Part shown: positions 1 through 58,780 of the stretch, piece by piece
How positions within the stretch are numbered: the first letter of the stretch is position 1
Layout of the letters: the number at the start of each line of letters is the position of its first letter
NCBI GenBank assembly: GCA_030062745.1
Contig: CP099843.1
Coordinates: 24,246,999 to 24,310,998, forward strand
Source: Capitulum mitella
Lineage: Eukaryota; Arthropoda; Thecostraca; Pollicipedomorpha; Pollicipedidae
Direction: 5' to 3'
DNA length: 64,000 nt
The notes under the pieces: generated by a model
Database searches by the model: none
What the model was told of the DNA's origin: nothing
What the model saw: the letters and a program-made list of their open reading frames with translations, nothing else
Program-made: the position numbers and the translations under genes

Positions 1-1159
1 GACCAAGGCACAAGTGGCCAATATTTTCCCTGCTGTTATTCCCTGTCATGAAGGCTACGCTACGTCAGGCTCGCAACCAGTTTACGCCGGGCATGATTAC
101 CATCCAGTTAAGGTGTAGCTGTATTATGTAGCTGTATGTAGCAAAATTAGCGTCGCCATACAGGGTTACTTTTTCAGCTGAATCAGACCAGAAGCCTTTT
201 AGGCCGTTTTCAGCGCGCCTTTCTTGCAATGTGATATGAAGGCGTAATTTGAGCTGATGCAAAATAAACGTTAGCGTGGTCGCAGAAAAGTAAGACTTAC
301 TGAAGGATGCGATACTCTTATATTCAGTTGAGTATCCATAGTGACTTTTCCAGTACGCTGTTACATTTGTTTGGTTCTATTCAGATACCCACCAGAAGGC
401 ACAGTACACACAGGATTAAGAGAAAATAGCACAACGGTGCTCACTGCAGAGCCTGACCTACACAAACTTGAAATATAATACGGAGACAAAGACATTGATT
501 GGGGTGATATGATTCTAGTCATCCGAAGTTGTAAGAAGTACCAAAACGGATGCATTGCGCATTACACGTTAGGTCGCTCACCGATTACATGTTGCCAGTA
601 TGAGAGCACTCCCAGCTCCTGGTTACATTTCAGCTGAGTGATTAGGGTAGACAGTCCCATGTAGATGCCAGCGCTGCAGTGCTGTGTCCTGAAAGCATAC
701 ACAGACGTTTCGTCCCAAACTTTTCGTAACAGCTAGAAATAAAAACAGAGGCAATTTTTCCTCCACAGATTGAAGCTTTTCAAAGGTCAGGTACGGGACG
801 TTTAAAATATCGCTAATCTGCCAAAGCCTCCGAAATTAAAATGACGTTCGTGCCGTTTCAATGTTCTATTTTAATATGCCGCGTAACTGAGTTACGCTGG
901 CAAGGAATAGCACCCATGTTTGTCTATGAAAGGGAACAAAATGAAGACCAGAATAACGGAACAAAACAAAAATGGGAGGACAAAAATGAGAACAAAAATA
1001 GCATGGGTCCAATCTTCCCAAGCGAAGTACACATTACTCTCCCCGGTAAGCTCATAACGAGACATTGGCAGCTGGCTGGCTGGTTGGTTCACTGGCTCAA
1101 CCATTCATTTTTCTGTACGATCCAGTTGTACCCTCTTGCTAGTAGTCCCAACCGCTGGT
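1..1159. other. Intron (after exon 16), left part
   Basis: No exon with the G-x-G-R-[TS]-G active-site loop was found on the minus strand here, so that exon is probably outside the window. The stretch is ordinary intron-like sequence with no recognised element. Confidence 0.5.
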
Positions 1160-1580: not shown

Positions 1581-1744
1581 CCGCAGACGACCAGAGTCGG
1601 AGTCCTGGCGGCGCCCTCCGCCCGCAGAGTCCGCCGCACGAACATCAGCAGCGACAGAGGACTCTCGGGGAGTCCGGACGCCGGCCAGTCGGTGTAATGG
1701 AACATTTGCACGCGCCGTTCCCGCGGCCTCTTCGAGGTCCGGCC
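1581..1744 (-). CDS. Exon 16: WPD-loop exon with Asp replaced by Ala; continues off the left edge
   Basis: Codes residues 808-861. RRVQMFHYTDWPASGLPESP matches the family segment x-x-x-[QF]-[FY]-H-Y-T-x-W-P-D-x-G-x-P, but the catalytic aspartate is alanine (codon GCG at 1681-1679). PLSLLMFVRRTL is the following helix. The end, TPTLVVCG, aligns without gaps to G-P-[IV]-V-V-H-C-S: the cysteine (1585-1583) would be retained, the preceding histidine is valine and the next residue begins GG. The alternative alignment on the two valines would lose the cysteine. Acceptor GTTTCTCTCAG, donor GTAAAC in phase 2. The rest of the active-site loop is beyond the window or was not found. Confidence 0.9.
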
Positions 1745-2117
1745 CTGAGAGAAACGCGCGTGATTCTGTGTCTGCGACAGCAACTTGGCCATGTTTTTTA
1801 CGATGGTAAAGGAAAGCCACTATGCATTTCGAAAGAAACGTCGAAAAATTGAGAAATACGCGATCTTCAGAGATCTGACGACACCTGTACAGTTGGTTTT
1901 GGACACAGTTTTTTGTCGACATAAGCCGTAGTAGCATTTTAAAACTTCTCTTTTTATAAATAAAAAGACATAATTCCTCTTTTCTCAAAGCAACTCTTCA
2001 CACGACAAAATACCTCTTCTAAAAGCATGTCTCCAGCTTACTGAATTTAGGCAACAAAACAAAGTCTGCCACGGAGTCATCTCACGCCGCAGTCACAGCT
2101 GCACTGGTGGCACGCAC
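1745..2117 (-). other. Intron 15
   Basis: A 373-bp intron with GTGCGT donor and TTTCTCTCAG acceptor. Nothing else recognised in it. Confidence 0.85.
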
Positions 2118-2246
2118 CTTCAGCTTGGACACGGTGAAATCCCTGACCACGCAGCCAGCCAGCGGGTGCTCGGCTAACCCCCTGACCTGGAGGTCACCGA
2201 AAGGTCGGACCCGACCCAGCTCGGGCAGCAGCCATTCAGCCATGCC
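2118..2246 (-). CDS. Exon 15: phosphatase domain beta strands
   Basis: A 129-nt, phase 0-0 exon coding residues 765-807. GMAEWLLPELGRVRPFGDLQ aligns to the family K-C-x-x-Y-W-P ... Y-G-x-[IL]-x-V segment, but the K-C pair is missing and the tryptophan and proline are shifted. CVVRDFTVSKLK aligns to the T-V-R-x-[FL]-x-V-K-x-x-K strand and is well kept. Acceptor GGCGTTCCAG, donor GTGCGT. Confidence 0.87.
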
Positions 2247-2890
2247 CTGGAACGCCACGGAATGAGATCAAGCGAGTGTCGGGGCCGGATGACGTCTTGA
2301 ATTACTCATATTCTATTGAAAGGCTGGGAATATCACATTTTCCTGCGCAGCTCTGCAGTTTAGAAGGTACGTTCACAGCCGACTTAATTTCAGTAGCGGA
2401 GCGCTGCTCCTGTTCACTGCATATGCGATATGCTTTTCGTTTTATTTAGTTTTATTTAGTGAAGCTTGGACTCGGCTGTAGAGTTACTGCAAACTTCCCG
2501 AGTGTTTATCCGATGGCCGAAAGATGCAAATATTTGTCACATACAAGTGGAGGCGCATTTGATCTGATCCCATGATCTGTTACAAAGCATCTGCGTGGTT
2601 TGAATCCAAGAGTGCGACGAATATCTGATAAATCCGTCTCCTTTGTCCGCTTCGTCGTAAAACTAAAGGAAAACTGCGTCGGTGAGAAACGCGATTATGA
2701 AACACAGTACCAAGGTGGATCTCTAACATTCCAGAACAGAAACCTGCGGAAAACATCAGCTCTTGTTCGGGGTTTTGCGACGCCAGTTAGTACGACGGTG
2801 CACCTGTCTCCTGAGAAAAACAGCACCTAACGGCTGACGACCACCGTGGTGGTGGTTTTGTGACGTCACCTGGCCGTATAGTGCACCAAC
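2247..2890 (-). other. Intron 14
   Basis: A 644-bp intron with GTTGGT donor and GGCGTTCCAG acceptor. It contains a direct repeat TTTTATTTAG near 2440-2460 and nothing else recognised. Confidence 0.85.
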
Positions 2891-3087
2891 CTCCAGCTCG
2901 CCGACAATCACCACGGCGGTGACGTTCTGCTCCCAGGCCAGCCTCCAGAGGGCGTCGTACGAGGTTAGGCTGGGCCGGTCAGCCACGATGAACGCACGCG
3001 CCCTCTGATAGCCGTCCACGTAGTGAGCGGCCGGCACCGACTTGTTGCGATACAGCCGGGAGCTGATGGTGACTCGGGTCTGGCGGT
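2891..3087 (-). CDS. Exon 14: phosphatase domain core with degenerate substrate motifs
   Basis: Codes residues 700-764. RQTRVTISS corresponds to the D-H-S-R-V-x-L strand. VPAAHYVDGYQRARAFIV corresponds to the D-Y-I-N-A-x-[FY]-[IV]-D-G-Y segment. YDALWRLAWEQNVTAVVIV corresponds to the D-F-W-R-M-[IV]-W-E-Q block, so fold-building residues are kept. The T-Q-G-P stretch is replaced by ADRP. Acceptor TTTCTTCCTCCAG completes a TAC codon with exon 13. Donor GTTGGT in phase 0. Confidence 0.92.
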
Positions 3088-4100
3088 CTGGAGGAAGAAA
3101 TCGGTGCCGCTGGGGATGATTCACGAAGAGGACGACAAGTGTTTGAAATCTGCCGATTTCAGTGGGTTGGTAGCAGGTTTCACTGCATTAATCGCTGTCT
3201 GCTGTGACACAGAAGAAATCGGGTGTACTTTCAAGGTTTTCCCTATCACGTTTTTGCCACAGGCCCCAGTTCTTTTTTAATTCATGTCCCGCCTCTGAAA
3301 ACTAGCTTCCCATATTTTATAAATAAGTTTCCGCAGTGAAATCTGCACTGACCAGATTTTAAAATAGGGTAATGACCAGATTTAAATAAAAGCAATATAT
3401 TGTTTCCCTGCTAGATTTTTCTCAACTTGGAATTCAGCCCCCCAAAAACACCGCCTCAGGACAAATTCAAAAGTGACGTGCAATGTAGGTGGAGGGTGGG
3501 TGGAGCCCCACCGATGAAGCGCTTGCTGCGCTTCCAGGAAAATTTGTTGAGAAATGGCGATTGACTGTAGCTCGGAACACAGAGAAATGGATGCAAAAAA
3601 AACTGGTTTGCCCTGCTTTGACTGCTCGACAGATATCAACAAAATGAAATAACTATGTAAAAATAATACATTAACTAGAATAACTTATAACCATTACATG
3701 AAGCAGTCATGAGCAAGCTGTCAGTGGTTCCATGATGCATCACCAGTCTCTCAGCTCGAATCAGCAAACTTCTCATAACTTATGTATGTTTTAACCCTCG
3801 CCCTGGTGTGGAGGGGTCTAGAAATGCTCCTACATTTTTCTCAAGCTTTAGTTAGACTGCTTGGGTAGTGCGTACCAAACTTGCGGTGCCTCTCCCTCCA
3901 TCAGTTTGACATCGTTTGGTGTTAAAAGTCCTCGAGGCGCTGAGAACTGACATAATTATGCTCAAAATGTCCTCGCTTGGCGCATTCGAGCGGCTGCGCC
4001 TGCCAGCGGTAAAGATTTAAGAATACGGGTTCTGTAATACCAAAGCCAAGACGTTCTTATCATTGTCGGTAAAATATAGCAGTTCTTCACATCAATGTCC

Positions 4101-5313
4101 TTAACCCTATTCCTGGAGGGCCAGACGATTTGGCCGATTTCCGGCAGGGGGCGGATTCAGCCCCCCCGCGATCTCGAGAACTACACATCCGATTTCATTG
4201 CAACAAACGGCAATCACTTTGCCATGACGTGAACTACACTTTAAGAAGAAGAAGTTCTCAAAATCTTGAAAGGGATAGATACAGGGTCAAAGTGGAATAT
4301 GTTTTTGGACTTCTTATAACTCCGTTGTTAATGGACCAATTTTGACGAAGTTGGCATGAATCGAAAGACATTGGATCGAAACTTTACCATTGTTACATAC
4401 ATGTGAAATTTTGGGAAAATTCATAGGCGTTCAAAAAGTTTCAAAAACAGGAGGATAATTTTTTCAACAACTGAACGAACAAAAAGCTAAAAGCCCTTTT
4501 TTGCTCCTGCTAGTCATGTTATGCTGGGGAAGTAAAAGTCGTATTACAATGTTCGTATAATGTTAGCATAGACGGTGCCAGGGACATGAAAAAGGGGAAC
4601 TGTCATGGTCACATGTTCTTCAGATCAACTTAACTGACGTCAACTTACGACCTTTTACCTTAAACCACCTCTATGGACCTTGGAGTCACTTGGAATGATC
4701 TCGTGTGCATTAAATATGATCTGAAACCTTTTCAGTCATTTGAATTTACTCTTTTTAAAAAAAAATCCGTTTTACAGCCGTTGCGATTTAGGGTAGGCTC
4801 ACTGACATTTTAGATCATAACTCCGTGACCTAACTTGATATCAAACTGAAACTCGGTACACAAGTAGAGGGCACCCTTTTGCGTCACACGTATTCTGGGT
4901 TTAGCATTTGAAAAACTGGCACTGAAATAATTACGGTAAAACCAAGTTTTAGCTTTTGACCTTGCCACAACCTTGTAAACTGACCTCAGATAAACAAAAT
5001 TGTATTGTATGTTGCCCAATGATTTAGCCATACATCCATATAAAATTTTTAGTTCTATCTTAAAAACGCTATTTTTGACAGTCATTTTTCTATTACCCTT
5101 AACAAGGCCAAAAATGGCCTGAGATGCCTCCCAAAAATGTTGCCTGGCTCTGCCCCTGTGCAAAATCGAATTCCAAAATTTTCGCACAGCACGTAGAAAA
5201 AATAGCTAGGAAAAGTCGCCAAGTTTCGTGACGCCACGTCCAAAACCCTGGAATTGGCACGTAAAAAACTCGAAGGGGGCGGATTCAGCTCTCCCTGCCG
5301 GGAACAGGGTTAA
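4101..5313 (+). mobile_element. TTAA-ended nonautonomous element, family A, copy 1
   Basis: Begins TTAACCCTATTCCTGGAGGG and ends GGGAACAGGGTTAA, giving short terminal inverted repeats that include TTAA, about 1.21 kb in all. Inner sub-terminal blocks (GGGGGCGGATTCAGC near both ends) are also repeated. No transposase frame is visible. TTAA ends suggest piggyBac-type mobilisation (inference). A diverged full-length copy lies at 6377-7624. Confidence 0.8.
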
Positions 5314-6376
5314 ACTGAAGAGGGAATCGCTGCCATCTTTTGCATGAGCCATCACTGTTTCACTGCGCGTCTAACGGCATAAAAATCAGAGCCATTGAAA
5401 TAATTATTTGCATATTGTGTGCAATGATGTGTCCTTTAACTCGGCACCGCCTTGGTGAGTGTCAAATAGGGCACTACCTCGGTTTTCGAGGATAATTTCT
5501 GAACCGTTGGAGCCAGCCCAAGAAACTTTCACCACCTATCTATCAATCAGTTTTACATATTCTGATATGAAAACCAAAATTTCTATGCCAGGTCAGGTCA
5601 TGGAGATATGACGTCGTAAGTAAACCCTTGCATGCATGTTTTTGCTTCTTCAGGCGGTGGCGCAAACATGCTTCGTTTTTTTATAATAATCGCGAATATA
5701 ACACATGGCTCGTTTGGATTTACATAGCGGCACGGTCCCCAAAAGACATGCAGAAACCGTGCACGTCAACATTACAGGTCATGCTACGTCACATGAATGA
5801 TGACGATTGCATTGTGCACGATGGAAAAGATAGATGGTTGCTTCTGACCTTCCCCACCGTTCAAGCTAGGCAAACAAAGCTATATACGTCTCTTAGCAAG
5901 GTTCACCACATGCGTCGCGGGGTCCTGTCGGGTCGCGTCACAGGAAGATGTCAAAACGGAATGAAATGCAACACTATCTGGGAAAATCGTTCAGTAGTAG
6001 CAGAGAACAGTTATCCTGAACTGCAAGGCTTGTGGCAATCGACTGATGGTAGACCGGCTCAGATCAGACGGTCATATCCCTATGACAGAGGATCTAACCG
6101 TCGGTTTGATAACAGGGGGCGCCTTTTTTACATCCCCAGGCTGTCGTGGGTAGGAAAACACGCCTGAGGCGGTGCCGCGTCACAGCGTTCCGACGACGCT
6201 GGCGAGGGCCGCGGCGTCTGGCGGCGCGGCCGCTGCCTGGCCGCATTTCGCACGCTGGTGCCGAATGATGGAAAGGTCAATCTCAGTAACTCAAACTGTA
6301 AAGTAAAGTCTTTCAATTCTAGGTACATCAGTTGAGACAAATATGGTTGAGCTCACACGATTCCATGCAGATCTAA

Positions 6377-7624
6377 TTAACCCTATTCCCCGGAGGGCTA
6401 GACGGTATGGTCGATTCCAGGCAGGGGGGGGGCGGATTCGGCCCCCCCTGAGATCTCGAGACCTACGCATCCCATTTCATCGCAACAAACGGCAATCGAT
6501 TTGCCATGATGTGAACTACATTTCAGAAAAAAGAAACTTTCAAAATTTTGGAAGGGGTGGATACAGGGGCAAAAATATTGAAATCGGGGGTGTTCTTTGG
6601 ACTTCTTATAACTCTGTTGCTTATGAACCGATTTCAATGAAAGTGACATGAATCGAGAGATTATGGATAGGACTTTTACCATTGATACACACATTTGAAA
6701 TTTTGAGAAAATTCATAGGCGTTCAAGGGGTTTTTAGAATAGGAGGATTGGTTTTCCGAAAACAAAATGAAGAAAAAAGGTAAAAACACTTTTTTGGCTT
6801 CTGCTAGCCATGTCCTGCTAAACAAGTACAAATCGTATTACAATGTTTGTACAATGTTAGCATAGGCGGTGCCAGGAACATGAAAAAGGGGCAACAGTCA
6901 TGATCACATGCTCTTCAGGTCAACTTGTGACCTTTGGCCTTAAATGACCTCCAGTGACCTTGGAGTCTCTTCGAATGATCTCGTGTGCATTTAGCATTGT
7001 CTGTAAATGTTTTCAATCATTTGAATTCACTCTATTTCAAAAAAATCCATTTCTTGGCTATTGTGATATAGGGCACGCGCACTGACATTTTAGGTCATAG
7101 CTCCGTGACCCAACCTGATATCAAGGTGAAACTTGATACACAAGTATAGGGAACCAATCTATGTCATATATATTTCGGGTTTGGCATTCCAAAAAATACC
7201 GTCAAAATTATTACTATAAAACCAAATTTTTATTTTTTTGTTTCAAGTTTTTAAATTTTGACCTTGACCTGACCTTGTAAAGTGACCTCATATGAGGCAA
7301 AATTGTACTTGCACGTTGCCCAGCTATTTAGCTATTCATACATATCAGGTTTTAAGTTCTGTCTTAAAAATGTTATTTTTGGCAGTCATTTTCCTTTTAC
7401 CCTCAACCTGTGAAGGCCAAAATTGGCCTGAGGTGTCTCCCAAAAACGTTGCCTGGTTCCGCCCCTGAGAAAAACAGAATTTCGAAATTTTGTCACAGTA
7501 CGTAGAAAGAATAGCTAGGAAAAGTCACCAAGTTCCGTGAAGCTGCGTTAAAAAAAACCTGGAATTGGCAAGCAAAAAACCCGAAGGGGGCGGATTCAGC
7601 CCCCCATTCAGGGAATAGGGTTAA
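6377..7624 (+). mobile_element. TTAA-ended nonautonomous element, family A, copy 2
   Basis: Same ends and internal order as the copy at 4101-5313 (TTAACCCTATTCC ... GGGAATAGGGTTAA), same orientation, in the same intron. The two copies differ at many positions and by small indels, so they are old. Both are rich in TGACCT / AGGTCA words. Confidence 0.82.
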
Positions 7625-8883
7625 GTGACCATACTTTGCAGCAGGTTTCATAAAAACCTCACCATTGTGGAGGTGACAGGCCTTCATCAATGCGAGAGCT
7701 AAAATAAAAATGACTGAACAAAGTCCAAAATAGTCTTACTCAGCTACCGGAGTTTTGGCATGCTTATGGAAATAAACAGTCTTCCTTATGACAGGATAAG
7801 CTGGATTTTACACGAGAAAAATGTCTATTATTGCTGGCCTCAGTGTTTCGCCATTAGGTCATTTTTGTTTTAATGCCAAAACGTCTGAGTCCAACTTTAA
7901 TAGAAATAAATGACAAAGTAAGAATCAGTGCATCAATAACTTTTGGTATTGTCATTTTGAAGCAGATATCGTTTTCATGTCAATAGTCCACTGCTGAAGG
8001 TATTCATTTTTGTACTTAATTATTTCAGGAAACTGAGCAAAGTTGTACATTGCATCAATATGCATTCCACATACGAGGTGCCCTACTGAAATTTCGCGAC
8101 ATTAAATACATAGCCTCTTCCGAAGCCTAGATTCGGCTCGTCCCCAAAGCCGTAACAACGTTAAACCGCGGTCTCGCTGAGGTGGAACCGACATCAGTGT
8201 GACACAAAAGGCCATGTCTCTGAGATATGATTTCCCGAATCCATCTCGTGACCACTCCTACGCCGAGCGGCGGCCACGTCACCGCCGCCCTCGCACGGCC
8301 TGCCTCGTCAATCGGGTCTTCGCGGCGAATTCCGCTGGGGTTACGGACCCGAACACGGTCGGACAGCACGCGGCTCGCGCCCACCCAACGGAGCGGCCGG
8401 GCCCGCCACTGAAGCTTTGGCCGCCGACATCGAGAGTCCGTGTTTTGGAGAGGTGCACAAAACGTCAGACTGTCACCTGCAAAGACTAAAACCTCTGGAT
8501 CTCTCACATCCCCAATTCGGACAAATTTCATCTTACCAGTTGAAATAATACAGTGGCCGACTACTTCCAGAGCCAATGCTAGAAGTCACCAGCATATTTA
8601 CAGCGACTTCTTGTATTGCGTGCTTGTCGTTTGTATTTGCATAAAAAAAGTGATTATCTGCCACTCATCTGATGTAATTTCAAACCAATATCTGTCACTC
8701 AGGCTGGCAGGCAGGTTGGCAGATTTGTATTCCTGAGGTGATTCCCGCCGACGAGGTGACAGCGGGAGGTTCAGCCAGCGGGAAATGCATTCGACGACGA
8801 CGCCGCCTGCGCCGCGGCGGCAGCTTATCGCCGGGCTGCTCCCACCGCTGGCAGCCCGCGGGCATCCGCTGCCGGCGACTCAC

Positions 8884-9152
8884 AAGTCGGAGTCTCCGGG
8901 TCGGCCGACTCGGCCGGAGTCGGGACGCTGGTTCGCCGGCCGTCCGCCAGGGGCGCTGCCCGCTGCAGCATCGCCCACTCGCGCCTGAAGCCGTCGCCGC
9001 CGTCGGCGTGCTGCTGGCGCACGTGCTGCGCGAACAGGTGCGACGGCACGGCCTCGTGCGAGGGCGCCGGCCAGCCGGCCGGCCGCGCCGCCGCGGCAGA
9101 CGACGGCTTGACGCCGGGCTTGGCCGGCTGGGGGCACTGCTTCTGTCGTCGC
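8884..9152 (-). CDS. Exon 13: juxtamembrane segment and start of the phosphatase domain, phosphotyrosine loop lost
   Basis: Codes residues 610-698. RRQKQCPQPAKPG is the stop-transfer and juxtamembrane part, followed by an Ala/Pro-rich stretch. AVPSHLFAQHVRQQHADGGD then GFRREWAMLQ matches the helix-turn-helix wedge and first helices of receptor phosphatases (family pattern: F-x-x-H ... D-x-x-F-x-x-E-[FYW]-x-x-[IL]-Q). The family then has a conserved NKxKNRY block about 20 residues later. Here the same spacing holds TPAESADPETPT instead. Acceptor TGCCCCCAG, donor GTGAGT in phase 1. The join to exon 14 keeps the distance from the wedge helix to the R-V strand within about three residues of normal, so a missing exon is unlikely. 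Confidence 0.88.
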
Positions 9153-9559
9153 CTGGGGGCACAAAGGTCACGCGGTGAGTGGTCATACACTTGGGGATCA
9201 AGCTGTTAGACGGGAGGCTCATATGGACGTGGTCACCGGAGAATCTTGAAGTGTGAAGCGCTTTATCATTCGTCCCTGGCGTAAGGATGCAATGCGATAT
9301 CGTCGTCCAAGAGTAAACGGGAACGGAACTCGGATCTCCTCGCAAATTATTCATGGTTAAAACGTCACAGTTCATGAGCGTCGGAGTTGCTCGATTTTGG
9401 TATTTATGATGCTCATGGCTGATGCAGAACATAAATTGGGGTACTGGGAAGAGAACGGCACATCTGGTGCTTTAGAATTTTCGGTCGTATTGAGAGATGC
9501 ATTCAAAGGGAAAAGGCTAAAGGGACACTGATGAGAAAAAGAGAATAAAGCGGAAAGAT

Positions 9560-9655: not shown

Positions 9656-12600
9656 TTAAAAAAAAATGTCAATGGACTTCCTGTGAATTAAAGCATGACA
9701 TGAATTTGTTTTTCCACCCGGCGACTGCATTTGCGCCTCCGGCCCTAAATCTTTTCCTGTGACCACTACTAAAGTCGCCGAAGAGCTAAAAAGACCCTGA
9801 CAAAAAAGGGGGACCTGTTGACAGTGAAGAAATGTATTAAGCGTCTTTAGTATTTTCGGAGTTCTCAAATACTTAGAGCTCATACTTAGCATGCCTCTCA
9901 GCCAATGACGATAATGGCAGTAAGATAAGGCTCAAGCTTGTGGATGTATTTATGTCTTGGCGCTGATTCCGGTTTGTGTGTAATAGGATATCTTACCTTT
10001 CACACACTGCACAAGTGAATATCACGATTAAAAACAAAACGGCACAATGTCGTAACATGCTAAATTTCACTTCCCTGTGAGCGTAAGAGCTTCCGAGGAC
10101 GCATGAGTTTAGAGTTAGGGTCAAATATTTATGTAGGATCGTATTTAAGGGGAACACACTAGACGCTACAATGACTCTTTTCAAAGCCACACTTCGTAAG
10201 TCTCGGACACCAATGACTTGTTCATAATATGTTCTTTGTTTAGCATTACTAGGCAAGGGTTTTGATGTCAGTGGCTTCAAGAAGCCAGCCGATGCACAAA
10301 CCTGATGCATCAGTCCCTCCTCACGTTTCATATGTTCACTGCTCCAGCCATTTATCCTTTACCTCGCTGACCCCCACCGCTCATTGGCCCCCAGAGAGCT
10401 GTGTGAACGCCGCCCACCGCCGGCCCCAGCCCCCGTGTCCCAGCTGGGCGCAATCTCATCAGCTGTCGGCCGGCCAGCAGCGGACCGTAAACCCACGAAC
10501 GGTCCGGCCAGTCACGCTCGGCCGCCTCCGTCGCCCCAGGCGAAGTACACAGCGAGGGGGAGTCTCACAGGTAAAGTTGGCGGCCGCTGCCGGTTCTTTG
10601 GTGACAGAGGGATGTCGCTTTTAAAATGGATTAAGGACACCCACACTTATGTTATGGGGAATCGAAATCTCAGAGGGTGCTCATCACGTGAGTTCTGTTC
10701 CGTGTTAAATTCACGAGTCGTTAGCGATGGTCAACTAATTAACATGCTGAAACGCCCACAGAAAAGGAGGAAATATGTCCCTCTCTCGCTCTCCATGCCA
10801 TCTGCCAACTACCGTCAGTGTACTCCTCTTTACTGAGGTAGGAAGAAATCAGTATACCTCGCTTCTTAAGCAGAGTTCTTTATGTCTTTATAGAGCTTGC
10901 AAGAGCCAAAGAAAATTCTCCCTCCAAACGCCCTTAATAAAAACTTACATAACCGCCCATTCGTCAGTCGGCGCGGTGGAATAATTCTTCTAAATACGCT
11001 AGCAGTAAACACCGCACCCAGCTGTCATAAGAGCTAGGGCCCACTTCCGCCCCTCAGACAGTGATTGCTTCGAAGAACCGGAGCACACCATGCCGTTCCA
11101 TTGCGACTGGGATTCCAGTCACAGCGACATCTTGAAAACGTCCCGTCGATAAGCCGGCCACAGCGCGCCGCGGTACATCGATCGGCCGTGATTGACACCG
11201 GCTCTGGCGCCCGGTGACGCCAGCAGCCAGCTCCGACGCTTCCGCCCTTTGTCGCTAGCTCGGACAAGCTGATTCGGCGAAACTGTCGCCGCACGACGTG
11301 ACGCCCACCGACAGCACGATCCTAGCATGGCCGATGGCAAAGGTCAGTTTATTTCGTCTTGGGCCGCCGACATGACGTTTCGTGACGCTGGCTGTGGACA
11401 GTTCGCTTGGTGCCCTTTCCTTTACCGACAGGCCAACAATACCTTTCCAACAGATCACGGCTGGGCCAAGGAACGGTTATGAGGCTACCGAGTCCACAAT
11501 TCCCGCAGGCTCAGAGCCGGTCCGCAAGTTGACGGGCCATGGAGATAACACGTAGCTCTCCAGCAGCCCAATGGCAGATCACCAAGCCCTTGGACAAGTC
11601 ACATCCAGTGGACGAAATCCCCCTTAACGTCGCCAGCCGCTACATCACAGGAAGCCACGGAAATCGCCGACGAACCGAAGACCACAGACAAGCCAGGCGT
11701 ACGTCGTGCACTCTCGGCCAGTGCAGCAGGACTACTGCGCACGCTGACGTCCTGTCCGGTCCGGCAGGGGCCGCAGTCGTGCGACGTCGGGGTCGGCGCG
11801 GCCGGTGGCCGGCCGGCGCCGTCACAGCGACGCCGGGTCACGCGGCGACAGCCGAGCCCGGCCGAGGCCGCGGCGACGGCGACAGGCGGCCGGGCCGGCA
11901 GCCCGGCCGGCGCCCCGCCCGGCTCTAATCGAATCCGCCGGCGCCGCTCGTGACCGCCGCCTCCAGGCACGGTCGCCCTGGCGTCAGGCCCGGACTCGTG
12001 GCCGCTCACCATGTCTGAACAGTGACCGCCGGCAGGAGACGGTCCGGAGACCACGGGATCTCCGGTCTAAGCGACGATGGTACAAACTTTAGCTCCGGCG
12101 ATTATAACTTTTTTCATGTCTGAGGGGCTGCTTTTGCGTCCTTCTTTATTGATAAGGAGTGGGTGAATTTTTATCCGGGAGATTGGACATGTCAAAAATA
12201 CGGCGCTGCACATGGAAGCAAAACAGAAACTACTACTCAGGCCTTTTGGATTTAGCTTGTGACATGTTTTGAACAAGTATAAAAAAACAGCTAATGTCTG
12301 AGTACTGGAAAGCGATTTCAAAATGTCTGAGGACCAGTTGAATTGTTAGCCAACTTCACACCGGCAATGTTACAAATGTGATCCAATATCAACCCTTGCA
12401 TTTGAAAAGGTTTGATGACAGAACTTCGTATTGCATTTCTTCGTATCGTATTTCTTCGTACGCAAAACTTCGTAAGCAAATCTTCGTATCGCATATCTTC
12501 GTATGCAGATCTTCATATCGCTAAACTTCGTAAGCGCAAAACTTCGTATAAGCAGTTCTTCGTATCGCAAAACTTCGTACACGCAAATCTTCGTATACAC

Positions 12601-13611
12601 ATTTCCTCGAGTCCGCAAAACTTCGAACACCCATTTCCGCGTATCGCATTTCTTCGTATACGCAAATCTTCTTATCGTATTTCCTCGTGTACGCAAATCT
12701 TCGTATCGCATTTTGCTGTACTTGTACACTTCGCAACTGCTGCATTTCGACTTTTGCGCACGACGCGTGCATGTCTTCCTCCCTTCTAGCAAGGTAAATT
12801 ATATTCACCGGCTTGGTTACGCGTATATTGCGACTGAGGAAGCGCATTCCATCGGTGGGCACAGGTAAGGTACAGGGGCCCAGGAATGTCCCAGAATGTT
12901 GAGGGATGAGCAAAATCCTTTTTAGGCTTTTCTGTCTGAGCATTACCATAGTGTCATGCTTTGGCAGATTAAAGAGGTGTAAAATAGAGGAAATCTTAAT
13001 ATTTGCTTGCCTGCACGGACAACTCGTTTAAAATCAGCAAGCGCTCACTTTGCAGGTCAGCAGGGTACCTTTTTGTGTACGTAGATTGGATTCCGTGACA
13101 GTGACCATGGGCACCAGATCATGGGCGTAGGAACAGGGAGGGGAAGGCCATGTCCCACTTCTTTGGGAAATCTAACATAAGTCCTATGGGGAAAACGTCT
13201 CTGCCCTCCTCCCCTCCCCTCCTATGCAATATGAATACAGCCGTATACAAATTTTTTGAATGCAAAAATATTTTTTTGTTTTCTGCGTCGTTTTTCAGAA
13301 AAATTAAAATGAGCTCTTTCTTTCTCTTTTTTGGAAATTTGACCCGAACGGTTTGCATGGACGGATTTTGGCTCAGAACATCAACATTTTAAGCCGAAAT
13401 TCTTGCCTGTACTCTGAACCCACCAGTAATGCAATTCCAGTTCAACGAATAATTTTGCGTCCGGCCATTATAGCCAGAAAGGACCGCGGAGGGATCTTTT
13501 CTGTGCCGCATTATGTTGCGTCACAGCTTCCCTGTGCCGAGTTTACCCTCTCTGGTCAGTAACCATTGGCTGCACTATGAATGGTCGGGCCAAACAAATC
13601 GAGTCCCGTTT

Positions 13612-13684
13612 CGTTGTTTCCAGGACTCGAACCCGACGCCATCGGGACCAGTCAACGTCCCTTACCCTCTTGGCCAGGAGGACG
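13612..13684 (-). repeat. tRNA-derived SINE head
   Basis: On the minus strand the A-box-like TGGCCAAGAGGGTAAGGG is followed about 30 bp later by the B-box-like GGGTTCGAGTCC, the spacing of an internal RNA polymerase III promoter. No intact cloverleaf was found, so I call it a SINE rather than a tRNA gene. It sits in the centre of the foldback-like element. Confidence 0.5.
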
Positions 13685-13899
13685 GCGGATAAATTCTTGG
13701 CATCTAAGGTATCTTGCCATGAAAAAATGTCATAATTATTCCGACTAAAATGAAGCAAACCAACAATGTTCAGATAACTTTTCGGTTGCTGAGTCCTCTG
13801 GCGGCCATCAGGTGCCATTGCATCGTCAGAACAGTCATCTCATGTTTGAAACCGCGATGCGAAAAAATTCAGTGTGAAGCCTTTGGTATCATCATTAAC

Positions 13900-13928
13900 A
13901 CGACGGCAAATTTTGAATTTGCCGTCGT
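13900..13928. repeat. Perfect inverted repeat, 13-bp arms, 3-bp loop
   Basis: ACGACGGCAAATT, loop TTG, AATTTGCCGTCGT. It lies about 30 bp inside the right array of the foldback-like element. Confidence 0.9.
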
Positions 13929-15565
13929 ATTATTTGCCCTTCCCCCGAAAAAAATACGGGGCACGAAGTTCTGCGTATAGTAAGAAATGCGATACGAAGA
14001 TTTGCGTATACGGGGATATGCGATACAAAGAAATGCGTATACGAAGTTTTGCGGATACGAAGAAACGCGCATACGAAGCTTTGTCGTACGAATATTTGCG
14101 TAAGAAAATTTTCGTACGAAGATTTGCGTAAGAATGGTTTGCGTACAAAGAAGTGCGATACGAAGATTTGCGTACGAAGTTTTGCGTACGAAGAAATGCG
14201 ATACGAAGTTCTCTCCGGACGTGATTTGAAAACTTAAACAAAACTGTTACCTTAACCCCTTCCGAATTAAGCCCTTGCACATGACGCCATAAGCCCGTGG
14301 CCTGACATAACTGGATGCTAATATTTTTTTAAGGGCAAGGAAAAGACTCAGGAAAGGCTATAAGGTCATCTATTCGAAATTTCGGAGTCTTGCCGCAGTT
14401 CGTTCACCCGGAGTCCAAGAAAAACATCATGAGGATGGCAGCCATACCCCTCCTGCAAGGATTAAAAACACCGAAAGCCTTCTGGGACCGACTCCAATGC
14501 GCCGTTTGTCTAGCGCAGTTTGTCAGGAAAATCGCGCTGATTTGCTGACCAGACAAAAATGGGGATCATATTGGCCCACTTACGGGACAGCATGTGTGAG
14601 CTCACCGTCGTGAAAACAGCTGCTGTGTTCTTAGCTTAAGAGATTACCACGACATTGGGAAACCTTCCTGCTTTCCACATATGTCATTCCAATTTCGTAT
14701 CGCTTTATTCGTTGTGATCCGATCCATTGTTTCAAAATATGTAATTAATTCTGGCCGTTAAATGCCAAGACGCTTTCCTGCCCACTTTAAATCATGTTAA
14801 ACTGTAATATTGCATGGTGACCGGAGACTAAACTTGCTGACGTCATCACCAAATAAAACGAGAATTTATTGAATGGCATAGCTGTGCTGCTGACTAAACG
14901 ATACCAAATATATCAAACTGGGCCAAATTAGGCTGGCGTCCGCTCGCTGATTGCTTTCTGGCAAAGACATCTCAGTCCACGGGTGGATCAAGCCGACGAT
15001 TTATTGTTCAGAAGGCAAGCCTGCAATTTATGTCGGAATGGTTTCACTCTAGCCCGATATCCTTCCCTCCGCAGACTGAGGGGCTTAGGGAGTCCAACCG
15101 GTATCGAATACTAACCAGACGCCGTCGCGCACCAATCCTGGCCCCAGTAAACCGGCTCTCGAAGCCGAAGGAATCGTTCGAAGTGGTTTACGCTAGTCTA
15201 ATCCTGGGAAGGCGAATGCAGCTTGAAAGCATTTGTCCAGGCATAAATACTGTGAGTGTTGTACGTTCGGAGGCCCTTAAACATTCATCAGAAGTATGCG
15301 GAACGATCGTGCATTTTCCGTAAGGCTGGGGAGCACTTTTTGAAGATTTACGAATTTGTTCAACTCAGCTAAAACGTGAAATTGTGGGTTCGTTCCACTG
15401 GCTTTCGAAAAGTTACCCCATATGTTCTAGGTTTCCTGACGTTCGTATTGACTTATGTATAGGGCACAACGTCGTGGATACCGATTGTGCTGTAACAAAC
15501 GATTTAAAGTCATGTGGAGGACTAAACATGCGCAGCTTATTCCAGCCCGCCGTCACCAGTCTCAC

Positions 15566-16006: not shown

Positions 16007-16123
16007 CTTCCTAGAGGCAGACTGCTGCCCCTTGTAGACCTTGTTCCGGTCTAGTCTGGAAATAGTTGCGCCCTGGACTCGGATGTCGTAGATTTTGTTG
16101 GACGTCAGGTTGGGCAAGTTGAT
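16007..16123 (-). CDS. Exon 11: last strands of fibronectin III domain 4
   Basis: A 117-nt, phase 0-0 exon coding residues 521-559. INLPNLTSNKIYDIRVQGAT has the FN3 L-x-x-L and Y-x-I-x-V pattern with a glycosylation site (NLT). The lysine/arginine-rich stalk (SRLDRNKVYKGQQSASRK) precedes the membrane. Acceptor CTCTCCGCAG, donor GTACGC. Being frame-neutral, the exon could be skipped without a frameshift. Confidence 0.88.
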
Positions 16124-17168
16124 CTGCGGAGAGGGATTCAGCGATAGAGCGGCTTTTCAGCTGTGGCAGCGAGTCGATGGTAGACTAGGTGTTTCTTGTG
16201 TAACACCTTGAGTATAGTTTGAACAATTATAGTTGTTACCATTGTGCCGCATAATATTTATTTGTTTTGCAACTGAATTCGTTTATTTCGCCCGCATGCT
16301 CGTATCATGAAATCAAAACTACGTGCTTCTCTGGCATCATTTGCAGCCGTCAGATTACAGCCAAACTCTGCGCTATCTGTTTTAAGTCCTGTGCCAAAAG
16401 GGACGAAAAAATCTAGATGCAGCGATGCCATTCGTTCCCAATTTTTTTTTCCATACACGCATGACCAGACCACGCAAGTGCCACTAATGTTTCTCCAATG
16501 TCCTGGGTTCCATCCTATCCTGAAACGCGAGACAGCCAGACATAAAACTGTTGGAGCTTAGCATACTTTACCGACCGTTGTCCATCCAATCACCTTTAAG
16601 AGGTCACCTCTGGGAAATTGGCCGACGCTAAAGGAGGTCGGTCAAGGCGGACCTATCCAGGTCTCGGCACGACGGCCAACCACTTACAAGACTCACAACT
16701 CTGTACAAGGCAGGAGAATACTTTTTCGCCCATGGTAGCTCGCAAAAAAGGAACTCGAGTTAAGGCCGAGCTCGCAATAGAACACCTGAACTATGGCAGC
16801 TCGTAACAAAAAACCTAAGCTGCGGCAGCTCGTAACGGAAGGCCCGGGACTAGGGCGACTTACCACTGGCGGCAAAATTACGTCACAGAAAGGAATGCAT
16901 TTTGGATAGTTCGGTTTTCAATGGCTTTCGTGTAGGACGGCAAACTTAAAGTGAAGACATTTCACTGAGGTCCGTATACTAAATCAATCCAGCTATAGTT
17001 TATATATTGTCATCCCGTTGTTATGGTAACTAACTTGTTTGCAATCGCTGCTCCTACGCCGCGCAATGCCAGAGATGATGGTACTTAACAACAACCGGTC
17101 AAAGCACACTGTATTTTCTTTCCCGAGCCCCTTACCGAGAACTGGGGTCGTTCGGAGCGTACAGGTAC

Positions 17169-17232
17169 CATGCGTTCCACGAAGTCCCACGCCTCATCGT
17201 ACCGGTACAACAGGTAGTACATGTCCACTGAG
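17169..17232 (-). CDS. Exon 10: middle strands of fibronectin III domain 4
   Basis: A 64-nt exon coding residues 500-520 (SVDMYYLLYRYDEAWDFVERM). It provides the C and C' strands, with the alternating tyrosines typical of FN3. Acceptor TTATTTCAG completes CGC with exon 9. Donor GTACCT in phase 0. Another AG four bases further in (TTCAGCTCAG) would break the frame, so the outer one is chosen. The short length makes this exon easy for gene finders to miss. Confidence 0.82.
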
Positions 17233-17972: not shown

Positions 17973-18156
17973 CGGTAGAAGACGTCTGGCCGGCGCCACT
18001 GGAGGCCCAGTGACGTATCGGTCGGGCAGGTGATGTTGGTGATGACCGGCGGCCCTGGCCCGCTGACGTCAGTCCGAGCCCGGATCGGGAACGAACGGTC
18101 CCCTTCGCCAGCGCCGGTCCGCGCCTTCAGCCAAACGCTGTACTCCTGGTCCGGCT
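17973..18156 (-). CDS. Exon 9: end of FN3 domain 3 and start of FN3 domain 4
   Basis: Codes residues 439-498. PDQEYSVWLKARTGAGEGD finishes FN3-3. GPPVITNITCPTDTSLGLQW opens FN3-4 with its tryptophan. Donor GTAACA follows TACCG. The acceptor (TTCGACAG) has no real pyrimidine tract and lies inside a 52-bp tandem array that repeats the acceptor and the first 18 exon bases. An AG two bases further in (edge 18154) is also present but would shift the frame. Confidence 0.9.
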
Positions 18157-19701: not shown

Positions 19702-19893
19702 CGAGCCTGTTCAGAGTGTACGTCCGGCTCCTGTTGGCGGAGATGGCGCTCTTGCGCACGGGCCCATCGTTCGAGGTCCAGTAGACGGTGTAGCCCCGCA
19801 GGATGCCGTTCCTGCGCCGCGGCGGCTTCCAGGCGATGCTCAGGCTGCGGTCGCCAACGCCGGAAAAGGAGACGGCCTCCGGTCTGGACGGCG
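19702..19893 (-). CDS. Exon 8: first half of fibronectin III domain 3
   Basis: Codes residues 375-437. Shows PSRPEAVSFS, then SLSIAWKPPRRRNG with the FN3 tryptophan and PP turn, then LRGYTVYWTS, ending in TYTLNRL, which begins the E-F loop. Acceptor CCCGCCAG completes a GCG codon with exon 7. Donor GTAGGA in phase 1. Third-position GC is high. Confidence 0.92.
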
Positions 19894-20363: not shown

Positions 20364-20478
20364 CTCCCTCTCCGGTGACGCCAGTGATGGAGTCCGGAGG
20401 CCCCATATCCTCCGGGTTCTTCACTTGCAGCGTAATCTCGTACCTGGTGAACGGCTTCAGGCCCTCTATCAGGTAACT
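20364..20478 (-). CDS. Exon 7: second half of fibronectin III domain 2
   Basis: Codes residues 336-373. SYLIEGLKPFTRYEITLQVK is the canonical FN3 E-F segment (L-x-P-x-T-x-Y). It is followed by NPEDMGPPDSITGVTGEG, the usual G strand and linker to the next domain. Acceptor CCGCCCTCAG, donor GTCAGA in phase 1. Intron 6, upstream of it, is 5.5 kb long. Confidence 0.92.
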
Positions 20479-25934: not shown

Positions 25935-26128
25935 CCGGTCGGAGACGTCGTGCAGCTGGACGGTGGTGGACGGTCCCGGCCTCTGGGCCGGCTCGGCGCG
26001 CCGGTACGTCAGACGGTAGCCGGTGAACTCGCCGTTCAGCGTGCGGTTCGCCGGCGGCACCCAGCCCACCTCCAGCGACGTGGAGGACCGGCTCCTGACG
26101 TACGTCAGGTTCGGAGCTGCTCCCGGAC
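25935..26128 (-). CDS. Exon 6: first half of fibronectin III domain 2
   Basis: Codes residues 272-335. Shows PGAAPNLTYV, then TSLEVGWVPPANRTLNG with the FN3 tryptophan and proline-rich turn, then FTGYRLTYRR and a Pro/Arg-rich stretch ending VQLHDVSDR. Acceptor CCCCCAG completes a CGT codon with exon 5. Donor GTGAGG lies in phase 0. A degenerate tandem repeat lies about 100 bp beyond the donor. Confidence 0.9.
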
Positions 26129-27280: not shown

Positions 27281-27492
27281 GTTCTCTGAGCGTGATGACC
27301 GGATACGAGGCGTCACTTGGTTGGCTGTAGCCCTGGGCGTTGACGGCCACCACGCGGAACGTGTAGACGGTGAAGGGGCTGAGGCCGGAGACGGTGACGT
27401 TGGTGTGGTTGTTGACCGTCCTCTGGCCGGCCTCCACCGGCGGCCAGGCCCCGCTTTCTCCGTACCTGCCGGCCCGCCGCCAGACGGCGCTG
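27281..27492 (-). CDS. Exon 5: second half of fibronectin III domain 1
   Basis: Codes residues 201-270. It carries the FN3 F-G strands: NVTVSGLSPFTVYTFRVVAV with the conserved L-x-P and Y-x-F-x-V, then NAQGYSQPS. Several N-glycosylation sites are visible (NHT, NVT). Donor GTAAGT in phase 1. The acceptor is a tandem CAGCAG: use of the second AG (exon edge 27489) would remove one serine codon and keep the frame. Confidence 0.9.
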
Positions 27493-31482: not shown

Positions 31483-31606
31483 CTGGTCTGGATGACGTAG
31501 TGCTGTATGGGGCTATTGTTAGTCCTGAAGCTGGGCGCCCAGCTGAGGTTCACCTGGCGGGACTGGTGTTTGATCACCATCGGGCGTCCCGGCCGGCTGG
31601 GCACAT
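31483..31606 (-). CDS. Exon 4: first half of fibronectin III domain 1
   Basis: Codes residues 160-199. Shows the FN3 opening: VPSRPGRPMV, then QVNLSWAPSF with the conserved tryptophan, then SPIQHYVIQT with the C-strand tyrosine. Acceptor GCGTTTCAG; donor GTGAGC in phase 2. A dinucleotide repeat (CT on the plus strand) sits about 70 bp upstream of the acceptor in the intron. Confidence 0.88.
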
Positions 31607-33098: not shown

Positions 33099-33282
33099 CG
33101 AGCACCACCAGTTTGACGACCCTTTGGCCGCCGGTCTGGCCGTTGAAGGAGCAGCTGTAGGTGCCGGAGTCGCCGGCCTCGGCGGGACTGATCAGCAAAG
33201 ACCAGGTGCGCCGGTCCAGGTCCAGACGGTCCCCGTCCCCCTGGATCACCACCTGCCGTCCCCTGTAGTCGGCGAGCTCACC
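33099..33282 (-). CDS. Exon 3: second half of the Ig domain
   Basis: Codes residues 98-158. It shows the classic Ig ending: strands leading to AEAGDSGTYSCSF with the second Ig cysteine (about residue 141), then RVVKLVVL as the G strand. The acceptor CCGCAG gives phase 0, matching exon 2. A CAG further upstream (exon edge 33314) would be out of phase. Donor GTAAGA follows one nucleotide of the next codon. Exons 2 and 3 together make one V/I-type Ig domain rather than two. Confidence 0.87.
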
Positions 33283-36582: not shown

Positions 36583-36788
36583 CGTGGACGCGGCGGCCGC
36601 GCACGCCCTCCGCGCGGAGCACGTCCAGGCGAGCCGGTTGACGATGTAGTCGCCGAGCGCGTCGCCGTCCGAGAGGCCCGGGCACGGCACGGTGGCGTTC
36701 TCGCCGGCGCTCACCAGCACCGTCTCCATCAGCCTGTCGCCGGTGCCTGCCGGCGTCGCTGCGTCGGGAACGGGCTGGGGTTCCGCGA
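36583..36788 (-). CDS. Exon 2: first half of the Ig domain
   Basis: Frame codes residues 30-97. The first 20 residues are a Pro/Ala-rich linker (AEPQPVPDAATPAG). Then comes an Ig B strand, VSAGENATVPCPGL, with the first Ig cysteine (about residue 64), and the Ig core tryptophan in RLAWTC (about 83). Two extra cysteines follow near the exon end, which is unusual for a simple Ig fold. Donor GTACGT after codon ACG (phase 0). The acceptor chosen is the CAG before TCGCGG, which gives the phase required by exon 1; other AGs nearby would break the frame. The exon lies in a GC-rich block. Confidence 0.78.
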
Positions 36789-57772: not shown

Positions 57773-58780
57773 GCTGCACCCACCTCCCTCCCACGAGTGG
57801 CGTCTCATCCTGCAGCACCCACCTCCCTCCCACGAACGGTGTCTCATCCGCCAGCACCCACCTCCCTCCCACGAACGGTGTCTCATCCGCCAGCACCCAC
57901 CTGCCTCCCACGAACGGTGTCTCATCCGCCAGCACCCACCTGCCTCCCACGAACGGTGTCTCATCCGCCAGCACCCACCTCCCTCCCACGAACGGTGTCT
58001 CATCCGCCAGCACCCACCTCCCTCCCATGAGCGGCGTCTCATTCGCCAGCACCCACCTCCCTCCCATGAGCGGCGTCTCATTCGCCAGCACCCACCTCCC
58101 TCCCATGAGCGGCGTCTCATTCGCCAGCACCCACCTCCCTCCCATGAGCGGCGTCTCATTCTCCAGCACCCACCTCCCTCCCACGAACGGTGTCTCATCT
58201 TGCAGCACCCACCTGCCTCCCACGAACGGTGTCTCATCCTGCAGCACCCACCTCCCTCCCACGAACGGTGTCTCATCCTGCAGCACCCACCTCCCTCCCA
58301 CGAACGGTGTCTCATCCTCCAGCACCCACCTCCCTCCCACGAACGGTGTCTCATCTTGCAGCACCCACCTCCCTCCCACGAACGTTGTCTCATTCGCCAG
58401 CACCCACCTCCCTCCCATGAGCGGCGTCTCATTCGCCAGCACCCACCTCCCTCCCATGAGCGGCGTCTCATTCGCCAGCACCCACCTCCCTCCCATGAGC
58501 GGCGTCTCATTCGCCAGCACCCACCTCCCTCCCACGAACGGTGTCTCATCTTGCAGCACCCACCTGCCTCCCACGAACGGTGTCTCATCCTGCAGCACCC
58601 ACCTCCCTCCCACGAACGGTGTCTCATCCTGCAGCACCCACCTCCCTCCCACGAACGGTGTCTCATCCTCCAGCACCCACCTCCCTCCCACGAACGGTGT
58701 CTCATCTTGCAGCACCCACCTCCCTCCCACGAACGTTGTCTCATTCGCCAGCACCCACCTCCCTCCCATGAGCGGCGTTC
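57773..58780. repeat. 39-bp minisatellite, 26 units, with a 351-bp higher-order repeat
   Basis: Unit CACCCACCTCCCTCCCACGA then ACGGTGTCTCATCCGCCAG. Variant units (ACGAACGGTG, ATGAGCGGCG, ACGAACGTTG; endings CCGC, CTGC, CCTC, TTGC) occur in an order that repeats every nine units: the block at 58190-58420 is translated identically to the one at 58541-58771, an offset of 351 bp. Because 39 is a multiple of 3, frames on both strands stay open. These are not taken as genes. Confidence 0.93.

Follow-up and report, generated by a model that had tools for sequence, protein, structure and literature searches.

The window analysed here, a 64,000-nucleotide stretch of Capitulum mitella DNA (C5:24246999-24310998; genome searched, 477 Mb in 16 contigs), contains on its minus strand a receptor phosphatase gene, labelled WIN, that runs leftwards from ~36.8 kb and past the left window edge. 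From its sequence, WIN probably encodes a transmembrane receptor of the PTP99A/PTPRG type (R5) whose two intracellular protein tyrosine phosphatase (PTP) domains, the membrane-proximal D1 and the membrane-distal D2, both lack phosphatase chemistry, and which selection maintains within a group of four related receptors with a pseudo-D1 domain. The three sister genes are labelled P2, P3 and P4.

Exons and splice sites of WIN were obtained with our own spliced-alignment program; a codon-only gene finder gave many false exons, and only homology-backed ones were retained. The resulting chain comprises 22 exons, 16 in the window and six in locus L011 (C5:24245855-24237668), into which the gene continues on the left with the rest of D1 and the entire D2. 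These exons join in phase into 1179 residues without a stop, and all 22 have AG/GT borders, in agreement with the intact splice signals and unbroken frame described in a first-pass annotation of positions 1581 to 9152. The last D2 exon was omitted from the chain because a minisatellite duplicates its start. Both ends of the annotated interval proved to be exon borders, and the next exons to its left were recovered (688-582 in the window, the end of D1 and D2 in L011). The exon and residue counts given for it differ from ours: exon 9152-8884 is the 12th seen in our model rather than the 13th, and 845 rather than 861 residues lead up to position 1581.

The encoded protein consists, in order, of an immunoglobulin (Ig) domain on two exons, four fibronectin type III (FN3) repeats, a transmembrane exon, a juxtamembrane/wedge exon, D1 and D2. 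Pfam recognised four fn3 pieces in the ectodomain (E 3e-19 to 1.4e-6) and an Ig V-set match under the curated cut-off (4.4e-5). Downstream of the single transmembrane helix, scores and exon order placed two Y_phosphatase domains (PF00102; D1 104.6 bits, D2 143.5 bits, cut-off 20.9). The score of D1, together with matching losses in the three paralogues, puts its identification beyond chance. A full ectodomain of axon-guidance type had been proposed for this receptor; one Ig and four FN3 domains of it were recovered, and no N-terminal or signal exon was found in the modelled locus. A one-base phase clash between the two Ig exons was removed by an in-frame acceptor at 33282. Candidate exons just 5 and 10 bases long, lying between the transmembrane exon and its juxtamembrane neighbour, were rejected as artefacts, as P3 and P4 join the two larger exons directly and the direct join in WIN is in phase.

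The D1 motifs of WIN, P2, P3 and P4 (given in this order throughout) were compared with those of five canonical paralogues, the roles of the catalytic motifs following general knowledge and PMC7320164. The KNRY block is lost in all four genes, as are both members of the Q-loop Gln pair. TQGP is replaced by ADRP, TCLP, SERP and TERP; this replacement had been recognised before as VADRP, of which the four aligned letters are ADRP within IVADRP. WPD is replaced by WPA, WPE, WPE and WPE, leaving A, E, E and E in place of Asp. Finally, the P-loop HCSAGVGRTG reads VCGTQHCSAG, ISGTSYCSAG, ITGRSGGGAC and ISGSSHCSLG, with C, S, T and S at the position of the catalytic Cys and S, S, G and S at that of the Arg of HCX5R. 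In WIN this loop is divided between two exons. The end of exon 1744-1581, reported previously as VCG for HCS, does read VVC(G), and it forms only the first half of the loop, with its Cys in register; the remainder lies in exon 688-582, missed in the first-pass annotation, which has GTQHCSAGIYMGL where the canonical sequence is SAGVGRTGTYIVL.

Joining exon 688-582 through the phase-2 intron of the paralogues sets the WIN Cys in register and a Ser at the position of the P-loop Arg. This register follows from the conservation of that intron and from the HMMER alignment of the loop, ungapped and in the same register, to PTPRS and PTPRZ. An early alignment in which HCSAG itself served as the P-loop was discarded, as it used a poor donor; with P2 as the query, consensus splice sites and the phase-2 intron of the paralogues were obtained. 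Residues of the PTP fold are retained in all four genes (VDGY, LWRL.WEQ, WP..GLP, HDCLLE). Of the 185 D1 columns that do not vary among the five canonical paralogues, all four pseudo-D1 genes keep 44 and at least three of them keep 63; 90 are lost in every one of the four. Thus none of the features of an active receptor phosphatase (HCX5R, WPD Asp, KNRY, Q-loop) is intact in WIN D1, and the earlier view of D1 as an inactive-looking domain is borne out by the motif table.

In D2 of WIN, KNRS and QHP are kept and the catalytic Cys is replaced by Asp (VVIDKYGGTEGATFC). The same Asp is present in P2, and at all three sisters there are matches to D2 exons, among them the exon that follows the Asp. 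D2 of PTPRZ likewise has Asp for Cys (PDB-chain alignment), and so does D2 of fly PTP99A, a domain with Asp958 in place of Cys for which PMC3172300 reports undetectable activity. Judged by its residues, WIN has no remaining catalytic centre in either D1 or D2, and we infer that it is unable to dephosphorylate.

A search with a single D1 exon revealed at least three close relatives (64, 59 and 50% identity), with the D1 exons of the seven canonical R5 loci at 34-43%. The family searches scored best candidates only, so that more members are possible and the counts of sister and canonical genes are lower bounds. All four pseudo-D1 genes carry a phase-1 intron ahead of GQCPY/GQSPY in the P-loop exon, where seven canonical loci read through. 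Within D1, 111 of 322 columns are identical across the four genes, 42 of them new with respect to the five aligned canonical paralogues, to which these D1 domains are just 29-33% identical. The sister ectodomains are known from search matches rather than from spliced sequence: ten near P2, nine near P3 and ten near P4, at 45-90% identity. Stops are overrun in 2, 3 and 1 of these matches, respectively (6/29), versus 4/10 for WIN; because WIN's own matches do so even though its exons are stop-free, the stop-crossing matches are probably intron overruns.

Paralogues with canonical catalytic motifs, a possibility raised in the first-pass annotation, do exist elsewhere in the genome: at least seven loci have canonical D1 motifs, at 24.15, 24.46 and 24.48 Mb on C5 and at 4.14, 4.15, 15.11 and 17.52 Mb on C4, that at 24.46 Mb being a partial model in which the KNRY exon was unseen. 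Among the matches listed, Ig-exon matches occur only at the four pseudo-D1 genes, and the canonical loci match from FN3-1 onward; this could mean that the Ig domain is peculiar to the dead clade or that it has diverged too far at the other loci to be matched. A further set of FN3-type exons (C5:17254058-17256570), 47-48% like the WIN receptor and with no nearby PTP match among the matches listed, may belong to a receptor or decoy that has no phosphatase domains.

Table 1. WIN exons within the window (window positions) and models of the sister genes (genome positions)
Feature	Position	Strand	Remarks
Ectodomain exon, Ig first half	36583..36774	-	Matches at P2, P3, P4
Ectodomain exon, Ig second half	33099..33282	-	Phase-0 acceptor at 33282; V-set 4.4e-5; matches at P2-P4
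FN3-1 first half	31483..31606	-	
FN3-1 second half	27281..27489	-	fn3 1.4e-15
FN3-2 first half	25935..26128	-	fn3 1.1e-12
FN3-2 second half	20364..20478	-	
FN3-3 first half	19702..19893	-	fn3 3.1e-19
FN3-3 second half plus start of FN3-4	17973..18156	-	
FN3-4 middle	17136..17232	-	fn3 1.4e-6
FN3-4 end	16007..16123	-	
Membrane-proximal stretch and transmembrane helix	15566..15714	-	P2 identity 81%
Juxtamembrane and D1 wedge exon	8884..9152	-	Phosphotyrosine-loop KNRY replaced
D1 exon	2870..3087	-	YVDGY and LWRLAWEQ retained, ADRP for TQGP
D1 exon	2118..2246	-	VVRDFTV
D1 exon, P-loop first half	1581..1744	-	WPA for WPD; VVCG at end
D1 exon, P-loop second half	582..688	-	GTQHCSAGIYMGL; Ser at Arg position
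P2	C5:21301437-21276776		Spliced model
P3	C4:13690498-13676309		Spliced model
P4	C4:11737514-11753871		Spliced model

In a tree of 12 rows, built without a PTPRU row, the four pseudo-D1 genes form one clade (100/100), and the pseudo and canonical genes of this genome are joined apart from PTPRZ/PTPRS (99/98), with lower support (81/83) for the exact sister of the clade. As PTPRZ and PTPRS are the only two outside rows and group together on the far side, the choice between R5 and R2A is not decided by the tree. D1 domain scores favour PTPRZ over PTPRS in all nine aligned genes (117.8 versus 95.6 for WIN), although the best whole-chain PDB score for WIN is that of PTPRS 4bpc (162.4 versus 159.3). 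The stem of the pseudo clade is long (1.1-1.5) relative to its end branches (0.22-0.55), a shape that points to a burst of change and slower change afterwards.

Pairwise synonymous divergence (dS) in D1 among the four genes ranges from 0.89 to 1.29. For the barnacle whole-genome duplication, PMC11331182 places the Ks peak of paralogues at 0.8 in C. mitella and at 1 in Amphibalanus, compared with 0.6 between these two. C5 and C4 carry two of the pseudo-D1 genes each, and copies of a further PTP gene (L050, L051) likewise occur on both contigs. The closeness of our dS values to the published Ks and this C4/C5 distribution suggest that the dead receptor form may date from around the time of that duplication, a rough comparison since Ks estimators differ. 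Similar PTP gene pairs were observed on the contig pairs C4/C5, C6/C11 and C1/C10, the pattern expected from a whole-genome duplication.

No stop or frameshift is present in the coding sequence examined of any of the four pseudo-D1 genes, obtained with an alignment program that penalises both, whereas 26 to 33 stops per gene are expected under neutrality if 0.45 substitutions per site are assumed. For codon analyses L013, a partial model, and L014, whose model has one frameshift mark, were dropped, leaving five canonical genes; the tree kept L014 and so contains six. By the Nei-Gojobori method (NG86), the ratio of nonsynonymous to synonymous divergence (dN/dS, omega) in D1 is 0.33-0.43 in the pseudo clade (six pairs) and 0.09-0.32 in the canonical genes (ten pairs). 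Codon maximum likelihood (ML) gave an omega of 0.039 for the clade (four genes, 322 codons) and 0.046 for the canonical genes, with branches long and saturated in both, and rejected omega=1 for D1 in each (twice the log-likelihood difference, 372 and 709, respectively). The NG86 values thus suggest relaxed constraint on the dead D1, and the ML values show no such difference.

On WIN's own branch, D1 accumulated 52 nonsynonymous and 59 synonymous changes versus 71% nonsynonymous expected, a ratio of 0.36 (p=6.6e-8), and the corresponding ratios of the three sisters are 0.33-0.49; these counts use only codons at which two of the other three genes agree, and are biased to conserved sites. As far as can be judged from sequence, the pseudo-D1 receptors are under purifying selection. 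The open frames, the rejection of omega=1 and the constraint on WIN's own branch argue for a selected family of pseudophosphatase receptors rather than for a pseudogene, as had been proposed for WIN, and the shared losses in at least three sisters support the same reading. WIN thus appears to fit the definition of a PTP pseudophosphatase, with the fold signature present, the catalytic residues gone and the gene maintained by selection.

PTPRN and PTPRN2 (IA-2, phogrin) are receptor-like PTPs, described as inactive, with one PTP domain and a different ectodomain, and their PDB match to WIN is weaker (PTPRN2, 48 bits). Drosophila PTP99A and vertebrate PTPRG/PTPRZ (R5) share with WIN the tandem PTP domains, the D2 Asp for Cys and the FN3 repeats, and differ from it in that WIN has an Ig domain. 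Vertebrate R5 members bear a carbonic-anhydrase-like domain; Pfam detected none in the WIN exons scanned, in which the N-terminus is incomplete. PTPRU is of R2B descent with a MAM-bearing ectodomain, and a MAM domain was equally absent from these exons of the N-terminally incomplete model; the D1 chain of PTPRU scores 93.6 bits against WIN, compared with 115-118 for the D1 chains of PTPRG/PTPRZ. The D1 of PTP99A is active by measurement (PMC3172300), unlike that of WIN.

The human receptor PTPRU is described in PMC7320164 as the unique receptor phosphatase with two pseudophosphatase domains, altered, as in WIN, in its phosphotyrosine loop, WPD loop and P-loop. According to the same source, it binds reported substrates of its active paralogue, and a decoy function was proposed. 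PTPRU is reported to keep the catalytic Cys and to be 69% identical in D1 to its R2B sisters; the lower identity of WIN D1 to its canonical paralogues and the loss of the P-loop Arg make the loss in WIN look independent and deeper. PTPRU is the functional precedent for WIN and probably not its nearest relative.

By analogy with PTPRU, a role of WIN as decoy or scaffold beside the PTP99A-type paralogues is likely, so that the receptor seems to have changed from an enzyme into a binding protein. In this PTPRU-like scheme, which is less sure than the loss of activity, the ectodomain would bind ligand and D1 and D2 would bind partner proteins, leaving the phosphate on, and WIN would thereby oppose the canonical-D1 PTP99A-type paralogues of the same genome. 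Since the P-loop Arg is lost, phosphotyrosine trapping is unlikely, and partner binding would go through other surfaces of D1 or D2. A precedent for antagonism between receptor phosphatases comes from flies, in which Ptp99A opposes Lar in one motor-axon choice (PMC2270841). More tentatively, D1 may have been rebuilt, in the burst along the stem, as a new conserved binding module independent of phosphotyrosine, the four D1 sequences having been fixed since about the whole-genome duplication, so that an old, co-retained and enzyme-dead PTP99A class would tune the seven canonical loci.

Several observations weigh against a selected, doubly dead receptor acting in this manner. Synonymous sites are near saturation, and omega is rough, as the gap between the NG86 and ML values indicates. 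In all six pairs of the pseudo clade, the first 96 codons of D2 are better conserved than D1, so that some of the constraint may reflect no more than upkeep of the fold. Among the four genes, the D2 Asp was read in WIN and P2 only. WIN has a Cys at the catalytic register, plus an HCSAG string with its own Cys five residues later. Lastly, the decoy role is argued by analogy only.

The second of these concerns could also be read in favour of a tail that simply anchors or shapes the receptor (through dimerisation, stability or endocytosis), with the ectodomain doing the work and D1 acting as a folded spacer. The closer similarity of the first part of D2 than of D1 in every pair of the four genes, the variability of the D1 active-site region among them and the mixed identities of the ectodomain exon matches would agree with this. 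However, the columns shared by all four D1 domains, and above all the 42 new to the clade, exceed what a spacer needs, and we regard this explanation as rather unlikely.

That D1 retains some catalytic chemistry with its changed residues, for example on a different phosphate substrate or by way of the HCSAG cysteine, is very improbable. The in-register Cys of WIN (VVC), the HCSAG of its next exon and the YCSAG of P2 and HCSLG of P4 at the HCSAG position would allow it, and PMC7320164 describes PTPRQ, whose WPD motif contains a Glu, as phosphoinositide-selective. Nevertheless, WIN lacks an Arg six residues past either Cys, together with the WPD Asp, KNRY and the Q-loop Gln, and the three sisters have Ser or Thr where WIN has its in-register Cys. 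Slighter still are the chances of a decaying pseudogene, which the missing catalytic residues and the low identity of D1 to the canonical paralogues might suggest, given the open frames of all four genes, the rejection of omega=1, the constraint on WIN's own branch and the intact splice borders. Least probable of all is the splicing-in of alternative exons with canonical motifs, as tblastn with two canonical paralogues found no second D1 exon set in the 94 kb examined and none was present at the locus among the matches listed in the genome search.

Literature searches, thin on subscription papers, returned no prior report of such a doubly dead R5-type receptor. What is new in the preferred reading of WIN as a selected, doubly dead receptor is a known kind of protein, the pseudophosphatase receptor, in a further subfamily and lineage, where it is present in several copies and has undergone profound change. 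A second doubly dead case, in another subfamily and phylum, with four copies and the Arg gone, suggests that loss of catalysis from a whole receptor is recurrent and selectable. Moreover, the presence of dead sisters alongside canonical ones in a single genome would make receptor phosphatase function without phosphatase activity testable.

Two other PTP genes with unusual motifs were noted. One is present in two copies (L036-L045; C1:35635301-35653250 and C10:6987701-7001200), reads WPC for WPD (TEWPCHSC) and SDGAGRSG after VHC, and is possibly also impaired. The other, a third PTP gene (L046-L049; C1:21381751-21390950), has VWKDFMAP in its WPD region and an intact P-loop SAGVGRTG.

Several repeats were noted in the window and in L011. 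In L011, minisatellites at 8801-9153 and 669-1058 (C5:24245801-24246153 and 24237669-24238058) duplicated a 3' splice site and the start of a coding exon, namely that of the D1 exon CPYLLRTVEEYAFLHDC and that of the last D2 exon, REFLYLYH (88-bp unit, 4.4 copies); in P2, the beginning of the D1 exon CPYLLRTVEEYAFLHDC is matched once more, at C5:21284145-21284216. Within the window, a 32-bp minisatellite (1230-1566, 10.7 copies) stops 15 bases short of the donor end of exon 1744-1581. Two copies of a ~1.2 kb interspersed repeat occupy intron positions 4101-5313 and 6377-7624, 75-84% alike over five blocks; they begin with TTAACCCTATTCC and finish with AGGGTTAA, and look like the relic of a TTAA-inserting DNA transposon. 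At 12422-14208, a CTTCGTATCGCA-type unit is tandemly arrayed in inverted orientation; the longest arms (121/94 nt, 80/84% complementarity) are ~1.3-1.6 kb apart, and the whole is a probable mobile element with subterminal repeats. Finally, a 39-bp minisatellite at 57776-58775 (25.6 copies, 94% matches) leaves two minus-strand frames open for hundreds of codons (GGRWVLQDETPFV repeats) and is probably non-coding.

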